DNA from: a virus
IMG/VR virus record: IMGVR_UViG_3300038825_000698
Span: 3,296-25,454 of that record
Length of the DNA: 22,159 bases
Strand: one strand, 5' to 3'
Below the pieces are notes generated by a model, which saw only the letters and a list, made by a program, of their open reading frames with translations, was not told the origin of the DNA and searched no databases. The translations under genes and the position numbers were made by a program. Shown in pieces: positions 93-3,958 of this stretch. Positions within the stretch are counted from its first letter, which is position 1, and each line of letters opens with the position of its first letter.

Positions 93-504
93 CGTCCCCA
101 TCCCTTATGAACGTAAAGTCGTTTATGTCGAACATCGCGACCAGATTGGTTTCATCTGTCCCCCGGTCGGTCCTGCCGCCGATCTCGACGTCGAAGTCGC
201 ATTCGAAGCTGATGAAGCCAACGCCATCAGTCCAGCGCACGATCAGAAACGTCTTCAGCCCGGAATTGCGACCAATCTGGCGGGCCGTCAGTACCTTTTC
301 CAGCCCGATCATCACCCGCTGATATTTACGCCAGGACGATGATCTGACCTTCACCTCGCACAAAGCGAAGACCTTGCGGCCCCGGATCAGCGCGTGATCT
401 AGGCTGTGGAAATGTGGCAGCTTAAAGGCTTCGCACCGCCATTTCCCGCAGACTTCGTTCATCGTCAGCATTTCATTGCTGCGGTCGGCGCTAGTCTCGC
501 GCAT
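49..504 (-). CDS. PD-(D/E)XK-like phage nuclease-fold protein
   Basis: A 151-residue protein, last complete gene of the leftmost minus-strand operon. Residues 36-52 contain an Asp (SLDHALI) followed by a hydrophobic strand ending in CEVK (E50, K52), the D...E-x-K arrangement of PD-(D/E)XK nucleases. A conserved-looking KYQRVMIGLEK helix and FLIVRWTDGVGFI strand follow. I have seen this layout (EVKVR, then a Lys/Tyr-rich helix, then LLVRWTDGV) in uncharacterised phage proteins, but the biochemical role is not known to me. The ATG at 504 has a good GAGAGG Shine-Dalgarno about 7 nt upstream and overlaps the methyltransferase stop by 14 nt, so the two are probably translated together. The last 50 residues, after the strand, are Asp/Gly-rich and not recognised. 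Confidence 0.72.
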   Translation of the reverse strand: MRETSADRSNEMLTMNEVCGKWRCEAFKLPHFHSLDHALIRGRKVFALCEVKVRSSSWRKYQRVMIGLEKVLTARQIGRNSGLKTFLIVRWTDGVGFISFECDFDVEIGGRTDRGTDETNLVAMFDINDFTFIRDGDDGRKAAQSSNFAGS

Positions 505-1480
505 TTTCTGCCTCTCTAATTGCGTAAAGAATACGCGCCGCCACCTGTGGCACGATGCTGTTTCCTAGTTGTTTAAGTCGGTGTACCCGACCGGGTATCC
601 CATTAGCCACTCGACGAATTGCGGGTTCAGGCTCCCACCAGCGGCCGTCTGTAAATCTATCCCGCGCTTCTGTCCGCTGTCCCTGCGTTGCACCGTCGAT
701 TGATTGACCACCAGATCGGCAGACCTCGGCCCCCTGTTGCTGGCATCCGGCGTTGGCCACATCCTCACTGCATCGGTCAATGCTGTCTGAACCTGTTTGC
801 CTGTATTTTTGCTGTGCGGTTTGCTGATGCCGTCCCACGGCGTCCCATCGGCGTTGACCAGCTCCCCACTCTCTGTCGTCTTGTTCGCTGCTGGCGTTGG
901 CCACATCCGCACTGCGCCGCCGAGTGTCGTCCCACGGTTGGTTCCGATTGTCTTGCCTTGGCCCCGGACTTGCGGGTTGTCCTGCGTCGTCGCTGTGGGC
1001 CACAATCCAGCATCGGTCGCGTCTGTGCGGGGCATCTGCGGCGACAGCCGGAATAACGTAGCACCGGCTGGTGTAGCCTGCGGCTTCCAAGTCAGATAGC
1101 ACCGTGTCGAGGCCCATAGTGATGTGGCCAGCAACATTTTCTCCAATGACCCAGCGGGGCCGGACAGCTTCGATAACTCTAAGCATTTCAGGCCAGAGGT
1201 GTCGGTCATCTTGATCGCCTCGCCTGACCCCGGCAAGCGAGAAGGGCTGGCAGGGATATCCCCCTGTGATGATGTCAACCATTCCTCTAAATCGATCTGC
1301 GTCATTTGCAAGCTCCCTTATATCCCCGATGATCTCTGTGTCAGGCCAGTGCTTCCGCAAGACCTTCTGCGCGTGTTCGTCATATTCACAGAACGCGACA
1401 GTCTCAAAGCCGCCGACCAGCTTCTCGCCAGCGTAGCTGAAACCGCCAATCCCAGCGAATAGATCAAGCATTCGAAGCAT
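491..1480 (-). CDS. dcm: DNA (cytosine-5) methyltransferase
   Basis: A 329-residue C5-cytosine methyltransferase, which transfers methyl from S-adenosylmethionine to cytosine in a short DNA target. Motif I is DLFAGIGG (6-13). Motif IV is GGYPCQPFS with catalytic C77. Motif VI is ENV (114-116). Motif VIII is HRRDRCW (152-158). Motif X is LGNSIVPQVA (305-314). The target-recognition region (about 165-290) is polar, repetitive (VANA-type repeats at 160, 193, 241 and 291) and unusually rich in Gln, Arg and Asp for a folded domain. All catalytic motifs are intact and the length is normal for phage enzymes. Start ATG 1480; GGGAG lies about 10 nt upstream, inside the preceding nuclease gene, which it overlaps by 17 nt. 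Most likely it protects phage DNA from host restriction. The recognition sequence cannot be read from the protein. An alternative frame inside the gene also looks coding. Confidence 0.95.
   Translation of the reverse strand: MLRMLDLFAGIGGFSYAGEKLVGGFETVAFCEYDEHAQKVLRKHWPDTEIIGDIRELANDADRFRGMVDIITGGYPCQPFSLAGVRRGDQDDRHLWPEMLRVIEAVRPRWVIGENVAGHITMGLDTVLSDLEAAGYTSRCYVIPAVAADAPHRRDRCWIVAHSDDAGQPASPGPRQDNRNQPWDDTRRRSADVANASSEQDDREWGAGQRRWDAVGRHQQTAQQKYRQTGSDSIDRCSEDVANAGCQQQGAEVCRSGGQSIDGATQGQRTEARDRFTDGRWWEPEPAIRRVANGIPGRVHRLKQLGNSIVPQVAARILYAIREAENARD
565..1305 (-). CDS. Overprinted WPTP-repeat protein inside the methyltransferase gene
   Basis: A 246-codon frame on the same strand as dcm, shifted by one base, lying wholly inside it (methyltransferase residues about 59-305). 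The ATG at 1305 has a clear AAGGGAG Shine-Dalgarno with 7-8 nt spacing. The product contains features I recognise from many uncharacterised phage proteins: an N-terminal SQGDIPASPS...PGSGEA stretch, TRCYLTWKPQATPAG, LFRLSPQMPRTDATDAGLWPT, two MWPTP units, and a C-terminal LNPQFVEWLMGYPVGYTDL. The methyltransferase VANAS motif and the WPTPA motif are the same bases read in two frames. No biochemical function is known to me for this family. It could be a true second protein, or a recurrent shadow frame that has been annotated because its partner is conserved. The dedicated ribosome-binding site favours real expression. Confidence 0.6.
   Translation of the reverse strand: MTQIDLEEWLTSSQGDIPASPSRLPGSGEAIKMTDTSGLKCLELSKLSGPAGSLEKMLLATSLWASTRCYLTWKPQATPAGATLFRLSPQMPRTDATDAGLWPTATTQDNPQVRGQGKTIGTNRGTTLGGAVRMWPTPAANKTTESGELVNADGTPWDGISKPHSKNTGKQVQTALTDAVRMWPTPDASNRGPRSADLVVNQSTVQRRDSGQKRGIDLQTAAGGSLNPQFVEWLMGYPVGYTDLNN
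749..915. repeat. Short direct repeat in the methyltransferase target-recognition region
   Basis: Two 23-nt copies, 749-771 and 893-915, share GGCGTTGGCCACATCC followed by T or G and then CACTGC. A third, more diverged copy with GTGGGCCACAATCC lies near 990-1010. On the minus strand each unit encodes VANA or VAHS in the methyltransferase frame and WPTP or WPTA in the overprinted frame. Tandem growth of this unit probably lengthened the recognition region. Confidence 0.7.
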
Positions 1481-3317: not shown

Positions 3318-3575
3318 ATGCCAGAACAGTATGACAACACCGATCGCGGCGCTTTGTTCAAGAATGACAAAAAGACAAAGCCCACCCAGCCGGATTACAC
3401 CGGGCGGGTCAACGTCAAGGGCGTCGACCAGCGTCTGTCGGGCTGGATACAAACCAGCCAGAGCGGGCTGACTTATCTGTCGCTGAAATGCGAAGACCCG
3501 TTGCCGCCGCGTGACGAAGCCGCCCCGGCTGACAAGCCAACGGTCGAAGAACTCAATGACGAAGTCCCCTTCTGA
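3318..3575 (+). CDS. Small conserved phage protein, unknown function
   Basis: An 85-residue soluble protein with a strong AGAAGGGAT Shine-Dalgarno 6 nt before ATG 3318. The N-terminal pattern DNTDRGALFKNDKKTKPTQPDYTGRVNV, followed by LSGWIQTSQSGLTYLSLK, is one I recognise from short uncharacterised phage proteins near recombination and replication genes. The core looks like a small beta-rich fold. The C-terminus (PPRDEAAPADKPTVEELNDEVPF) is acidic and ends in EVPF, similar to the acidic tips with a terminal Phe of single-strand binding proteins. That suggests, but does not prove, a protein-docking tail. It sits 12 nt after the ERF gene and probably belongs to the same recombination operon. 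Confidence 0.75.
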   Translation: MPEQYDNTDRGALFKNDKKTKPTQPDYTGRVNVKGVDQRLSGWIQTSQSGLTYLSLKCEDPLPPRDEAAPADKPTVEELNDEVPF

Positions 3576-3783
3576 ATTGCCGTTCCGGCGTCATTTCTCG
3601 CGCTTCGTATCGTGCGAGCTTTGCGGGCAGCAGACACGGGGCCGCATCTGGCCCGGTGATCCTGCTGTCGTCAAATGCGGAAGCTGCCACGGGGTCCTGA
3701 CAAATGCGCCGGAAGAAGAAGATCATCAAACGGGAGCCTCGGCCGCATCAATGCCATTGGTGCGGTCGGGCCTTCGATCTTAA
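3556..3783 (+). CDS. Small zinc-ribbon protein, putative
   Basis: A 75-residue frame starting MTKSPSELPFRRHF, overlapping the preceding gene by 20 nt. It contains CELC near residue 20 and CGSC near residue 42, separated by 18 residues: two CxxC knuckles of a zinc ribbon. The tail after EEEDHQ is low complexity and overlaps the next frame. No strong Shine-Dalgarno is visible; reinitiation from the upstream gene is likely. The role is unknown. The C-terminal 27 residues share DNA with another plausible gene, so only the first two thirds need be under selection. Confidence 0.55.
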   Translation: MTKSPSELPFRRHFSRFVSCELCGQQTRGRIWPGDPAVVKCGSCHGVLTNAPEEEDHQTGASAASMPLVRSGLRS

Positions 3784-3958
3784 CGGTTACGGATGGGTGG
3801 CAGACGGAAACGGTGACCTGCTGCACCTTGAATGCCACGCCAAACGGTGGAGAGAATACCTTGCCCAGAACACGGAAACAGATCGAACAGATCGCAATCG
3901 ACAAGAACATCGAACCGCCGAAAACGCGGACGCGTTCGGGCTATGGGCTGACCGCTGA
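3704..3958 (+). CDS. Small zinc-finger protein, putative
   Basis: An 84-residue basic protein starting MRRKKKIIKREPRP. CHWC near residue 17 and HLEC near residue 41 form a CxxC...HxxC zinc-binding set, in a layout common in phage-encoded small zinc fingers (CxWCG...C/H...C). It overlaps the upstream zinc-ribbon frame by 80 nt and the next frame by 98 nt. The last 30 residues (NTETDRTDRNRQEHRTAENAD) are polar and may be spacer dictated by the overlapping gene. A possible role is DNA or RNA binding or modulation of host transcription; nothing in the sequence specifies a partner. Confidence 0.58.
   Translation: MRRKKKIIKREPRPHQCHWCGRAFDLNGYGWVADGNGDLLHLECHAKRWREYLAQNTETDRTDRNRQEHRTAENADAFGLWADR

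Follow-up and report, generated by a model that had tools for sequence, protein, structure and literature searches.

A phage cytosine methyltransferase gene that very probably encodes two enzyme subunits in overlapping reading frames

Two reading frames in one dcm gene

Does the long second reading frame inside a phage cytosine methyltransferase (dcm) gene encode a protein and, if so, what does that protein contribute? Bacteria and phages have few long nested genes on the same strand for which a function can be demonstrated. The gene examined here lies in a window of 22,159 nucleotides, which is part of a virus record of 25.5 kb. Its dcm frame (window positions 491 to 1480; this and all features below are on the minus strand) encodes alpha, a C5-cytosine DNA methyltransferase of 329 amino acids with motifs I to VIII and X. 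The second product, beta, would be read from an overprinted +1-frame ORF of 246 amino acids (565 to 1305), which starts with ATG, stops with TAG, and carries a probable target-recognition region and a putative motif IX. A Shine-Dalgarno (SD) sequence, AAGGGAG (1313 to 1319), is located 7 nt 5' of the beta ATG, within the alpha codons I-R-E-L. The initial annotation of this stretch had described a 246-codon ATG frame one base off dcm with AAGGGAG upstream, and both its coordinates and its motifs proved correct.

The codon for Cys77, the catalytic cysteine of alpha motif IV (PCQ; 1250 to 1252), shares its DNA with the N-terminal part of beta. The region between alpha motifs VIII and X (alpha residues ~170 to 290; 611 to 973) coincides with the recognition region of beta and its WPTP units. 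Both MWPTP units pointed out in that annotation are present, one at beta residues 134 to 138 (892 to 906) and the other at residues 182 to 186 (748 to 762), as is LNPQFVEWLMGYPVGYTDL, the putative motif IX of beta (residues 226 to 244; 574 to 630), which is encoded by the same DNA as alpha EPAIRRVANGIPGRVHRLKQ. In the beta alignment, P184, T185, and P186 of the second MWPTP unit are almost invariant, and P228 and M235 in motif IX are invariant. The methyltransferase was also said to keep its motifs across the same bases, and it does: motifs IV to VIII are intact throughout the overlap, and motif X (RLKQLGNSIVPQ, alpha residues 301 to 312; 545 to 580) spans the beta stop codon.

Alpha lacks motif IX and beta appears to supply it

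Alpha matches PF00145 in Pfam (E = 5e-42) and phrog_363 in PHROGs (E = 2e-80), and its score against TIGR00675 is above the cut-off. Motifs I, IV (PCQ), VI (ENV), VIII, and X are present, and the motif residues, including C77, are invariant among 80 relatives. When alpha was compared to HhaI using phmmer, motifs I to VIII were covered, followed by a match to motif X that was below threshold only; motif IX and a recognition domain were not found in the alpha chain by this comparison, by the dN/dS analysis described below, or in the AF2 model. That model has a catalytic large domain with pLDDT mostly >90 and two motif X helices (residues 298 to 305 and 311 to 328, pLDDT 81 to 97), and it leaves about residues 185 to 290 unfolded, with pLDDT mostly <50 (about 36 to 50 at residues ~190 to 290). 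The top Foldseek match of the model was M.HhaI, with ~169 of 327 residues aligned, which corresponds to the size of the large domain only. Alpha is like M.HhaI and M.HaeIII (PF00145) in its large domain, motif X, and overall fold, but in these canonical enzymes a single chain also includes the recognition domain and motif IX, neither of which alpha has.

Beta residues 8 to 244 match phrog_1008 (E = 4e-32), a family labeled "DNA methyltransferase" in PHROGs; searches of whole beta against Pfam, NCBIfam, and PDB profiles returned no match. Both frames are already annotated as genes in Paenibacillus phage records, and a Paenibacillus larvae phage carries this pair. Proteins of this kind had been described to us as common unnamed phage proteins, which holds for their recurrence in phages (phrog_1008) and fails for their lack of a name, given the "DNA methyltransferase" label in PHROGs and the calling of both frames in Paenibacillus phages. 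In one phage relative (L216), a single ORF of 496 amino acids matches phrog_363 at residues 6 to 180 and phrog_1008 at residues 246 to 488 (E = 4e-36), and another (L210) likewise combines phrog_363 and phrog_1008 in one ORF (E = 2e-30). In such phages, then, a methyltransferase has the WPTP and LNPxxVEWLMG module as its C-terminal half.

Searched against the PDB, a profile built from the ends bearing motifs IX and X matched DRM2 cytosine methyltransferases (E = 0.015); motif IX was in register, with rLnpalpEWlMGlpaGlvtd aligned against LEPDEMESILGFPKNHTRG. Profile-profile comparison of motifs IX and X with 16 canonical C5 enzymes using hhalign gave P = 1.5e-5, and comparison of the nested-beta motif IX alone with canonical motif IX gave a modest P = 4e-4, with 0 of 200 column shuffles scoring as well. 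A motif-IX-only profile produced nothing beyond chance matches in the PDB, and Pfam gave no match for the IX-X ends of fused enzymes when these were searched in isolation. Position, fusion, and the modest profile scores combined suggest that the C-terminus of beta is motif IX.

AF2 predicted beta alone with low confidence (mean pLDDT 59), from an input alignment that left out two rows from phage records. The better-predicted parts were a hairpin at residues 70 to 90 and a motif IX helix at residues 228 to 235, in a block with pLDDT ~90, and Foldseek found no meaningful match in the PDB for this low-confidence model. As a point of consistency only, the poor prediction might fit a subunit modeled without its partner.

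These data indicate that the dcm gene very probably specifies a two-polypeptide C5-methyltransferase in overlapping frames, similar to M.EcoHK31I. Alpha would provide the catalytic large domain (motifs I to VIII), with AdoMet binding and the catalytic cysteine, and motif X at its end. Beta, initiated separately at an ATG inside the alpha gene and preceded by its own SD site, would provide the small domain, consisting of the target-recognition region (WPTPxAxD units) and motif IX. Alpha and beta would associate into one active two-domain C5 enzyme, as in M.EcoHK31I, and their nesting would couple the expression of both subunits. We infer that both frames are translated, that the products pair as a heterodimer, and that sequence specificity is determined by beta; beta is most likely the DNA-recognition subunit of the enzyme.

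Distribution and architecture of the gene pair

The nested arrangement is common in phages and bacteria, and beta hardly ever occurs without alpha. We detected 80 loci in viral contigs using the beta query, 46 using the alpha query, and 396 stretches in bacterial genomes that code for relatives. Among the best 80 of these 396 bacterial stretches, which come from many phyla, beta is in the methyltransferase +1 frame in 80/80. When 196 genomes were drawn evenly from the class of one positive genome (L131, a Clostridia-type genome), 6 carried beta, and the loci inspected from those 6 genomes were nested in every case. We classified 221 loci more strictly, not all of them independent: 197 are nested with motif X in alpha, 8 carry both IX and X within the core ORF, and 3 (2 independent) have an alpha that ends after motif VIII and a beta that bears motifs IX and X. 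L161 and L125 have a second polypeptide that contains motif IX as well as motif X. L161 supports placing the recognition region in beta, because its alpha stops directly after motif VIII and its beta is still intact, and longer. In four phage loci (L214 to L217), the beta-family module, with LLPTPxARD repeats, follows the catalytic core as an in-frame fusion.

The initial annotation suggested that the second product perhaps modulates the enzyme, and beta might indeed be a separate phage protein, such as a regulator or anti-restriction factor, that is overprinted on dcm and modulates the methyltransferase from outside the enzyme. Such a protein would be expected to share two properties of beta, namely selection on both frames (see below) and an independent start with its own SD site. 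It would not account for an alpha without motif IX and without a folded small domain, for the in-frame fusion of the beta module behind the catalytic core in L214 to L217, or for the location of beta inside alpha in every one of the best 80 of 396 bacterial stretches. We consider an independent modulator very unlikely and reject it on the strength of the fusions and of the absence of motif IX from alpha; beta is better read as a required half of the enzyme that carries motif IX and a probable recognition domain. The same annotation held that never finding the frame apart from dcm would speak against it. We do not count this co-occurrence (80/80 among the best 80 of 396) against the frame, because a nested subunit predicts strict co-occurrence.

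Several loci depart from the common layout. In four phage contigs (L210 to L213), motifs IX and X are in the alpha frame and a short nested +1 ORF persists, which matches the N-terminal part of beta (SSWKT...WPRWG...ELPT...LLPTP) and is intermediate between the fused and nested forms. One free-standing beta-like ORF, the single case seen, is located on a Paenibacillus bovis plasmid (NZ_CP021170.1; L220, positions 3501 to 3899), 3' of a nested alpha/beta pair and without a methyltransferase core beneath it; it contains WPTP and NPAWIECMMGFPEGWTSL, and a search for viral relatives of this copy found none. The overlap of L126 has a short tandem duplication that reads as GEHGEHGEHGEHGE in alpha and SMASMASMASMAS in beta and is in frame for both. 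In L075 and L189, small indels merge the alpha and beta frames, which may reflect either sequencing error or a pseudogene, and the motif IX peptide of L075 falls in the alpha ORF. Finally, one alpha/beta locus occurs five times in a single chromosome of an uncultured Roseovarius (OX638333.1; L154 to L158), which suggests repeated related prophages.

Selection on each frame

We compared 33 independent close pairs and classed each of 2717 changes by its effect in both frames, which gives two dN/dS estimates per frame (NN/NS and SN/SS for beta, NN/SN and NS/SS for alpha). The alignment was guided by beta; the 13 pairs with >90% identity, for which alignment is trivial, agree with the full set. 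In the recognition region, dN/dS was 0.40 and 0.28 for beta and 1.01 and 0.69 for alpha, and in the motif IX region it was 0.33 and 0.15 for beta and 0.95 and 0.42 for alpha. Across motifs IV to VIII, beta had 0.52 and 0.27 and alpha 0.27 and 0.14. In the control outside the overlap, a pseudo-beta frame had 0.90 and 0.93, and alpha 0.11 and 0.12. Both frames are thus under selection: from motif VIII to motif X, constraint falls on beta and the alpha amino acids are near-neutral, whereas in the catalytic core both frames are constrained, alpha more strongly. These values agree with the earlier proposal of a target-recognition region shaped by a second product.

Because beta is under purifying selection where alpha is near-neutral, and because AlphaFold leaves this part of alpha unfolded, the "variable region" of alpha between motifs VIII and X is probably filler, with recognition residing in beta. 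A stronger version is also reasonably likely, in which the recognition domain lies wholly in the overlapping frame, the alpha segment is neutral filler kept open only so that alpha reaches motif X, and motifs IX and X have moved between frames to give the nested, split, and fused forms.

The same estimates bear on whether a programmed +1 frameshift carries ribosomes from alpha into beta past motif VIII, yielding a single polypeptide rather than two subunits. The product would link motifs I to VIII to the recognition region and motif IX, much like the fused phage enzymes. However, beta has an independent and conserved start: an SD match of at least 4 nt precedes it in 85 of 92 distinct loci, compared to a mean of 32 (maximum 42) in synonymous shuffles, which also bears out the SD at the beta start as a conserved feature. 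In addition, motif X of alpha is under constraint yet would be absent from the frameshift product, and the overlap extends ~100 codons 5' of motif VIII, where beta is already under purifying selection (0.52 and 0.27, as above). A frameshift is highly improbable, and two subunits with separate starts remain our preferred explanation.

Conservation of the alternative frame

Openness of the beta frame is by itself weak evidence, being only mildly unusual: the +1 frame was equally long or longer in 0.8% of synonymous shuffles of alpha for the window gene. We therefore rule out chance by conservation of the alternative frame rather than by its openness. In a permutation test, the alpha protein was held constant, synonymous codons were shuffled, and similarity and stops in the alternative frame were scored. 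For 29 relatives with <60% identity, similarity exceeded the shuffles with z = 34 in motifs IV to VIII, 25 in the recognition region, and 39 in the motif IX region, versus only 1.2 and 0.7 outside the overlap. Alternative-frame stops in this set numbered 2 versus 91 expected in motifs IV to VIII and 0 versus 23 expected in the recognition region; in the third frame, stops occurred at about the expected number. Because many of these loci had been retrieved with the alternative-frame query, we repeated the test using 7 representatives with <60% identity retrieved by the methyltransferase query alone. The three parts of the overlap gave z = 12.4, 7.1, and 20.7, compared to 2.6 and 0.7 outside, and 1 stop was observed versus 20 expected in the motif IV to VIII part.

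The similarity of the N-terminal ~100 residues of beta derives in part from the conserved motifs of alpha: this part of beta has a weak match in a canonical enzyme (L228) when that gene is read in the +1 frame. An annotation artefact, with the frame held open by alpha's conserved motifs and codon bias, could draw on this match and on the 0.8% of shuffles but is hardly credible, and we reject it because the conservation (z of 7 to 21 versus 0.7 to 2.6 for methyltransferase-query loci) and dN/dS signals (0.26 to 0.42 for beta in the overlap versus 0.90 to 0.93 for the control frame) do not extend beyond the overlap, alpha is close to neutral where beta shows constraint, and fused homologues use the same protein sequence as beta. 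The analysis confirmed that the alternative frame is a genuine, selected protein-coding frame, with excess conservation confined to the overlap. The choice that had been left between a real protein and a repeated artefact thus falls to the former, with stops depleted and the frame conserved in the overlap only, and the shuffle z-scores and dN/dS support both frames of what had been called a two-frame gene.

Relation to known enzymes and implications

Lee, Kam and Shaw are said to have reported in 1995 that the small ORF of M.EcoHK31I lies within the large one, in a different frame. The second ORF of the window likewise lies inside the methyltransferase gene, out of phase with it, and its motif split is the same as that of M.EcoHK31I and M.EaeI (YGGCCR) when compared by published layout. 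As far as the account in PMC3404938 goes, the large subunit of M.EcoHK31I has motifs I to VIII and X and the small polypeptide has motif IX only, and the target-recognition domain is placed, by prediction, in the large subunit (PMC3404938). In contrast, selection and structure prediction here put it in beta. M.AquI is described there as a split enzyme whose small subunit includes motif IX together with motif X (PMC3404938). L161 and L125/L209 are M.AquI-like in being split between motifs VIII and IX, but their frames overlap; the window gene differs from M.AquI in keeping motif X in alpha and in having an overlap of 246 codons. The monomeric phage C5-methyltransferases L214 to L217 have the same catalytic core and phrog_1008 module in a single reading frame. 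A literature search on overprinted phage dcm genes found no paper describing the nested pair. The nested arrangement has a precedent, and its breadth and the placement of the recognition domain in beta appear to be new.

Gene callers that bar long same-strand overlaps report one gene of the pair. The two-subunit reading explains phrog_1008, a common and mislabeled phage protein family, predicts that many genes annotated as "dcm" would be inactive when their clones fail to preserve translation of beta, and points to the beta frame as the one from which to read specificity. The family offers hundreds of cases for testing both frames, and because it includes fused, split, and nested forms, it allows direct tests of how an overlap within an enzyme arises or is lost.

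The methyltransferase gene of the window is flanked by two predicted PDDEXK nucleases on the same strand. One, PDDEXK_15 or RusA-like phrog_244 (1467 to 1916), is directly upstream, and the other, PDDEXK_14 or phrog_7141 (49 to 504), overlaps the 3' end of alpha by 14 nt. Two relatives (L020 and L036) have flanking ORFs similar to this pair.
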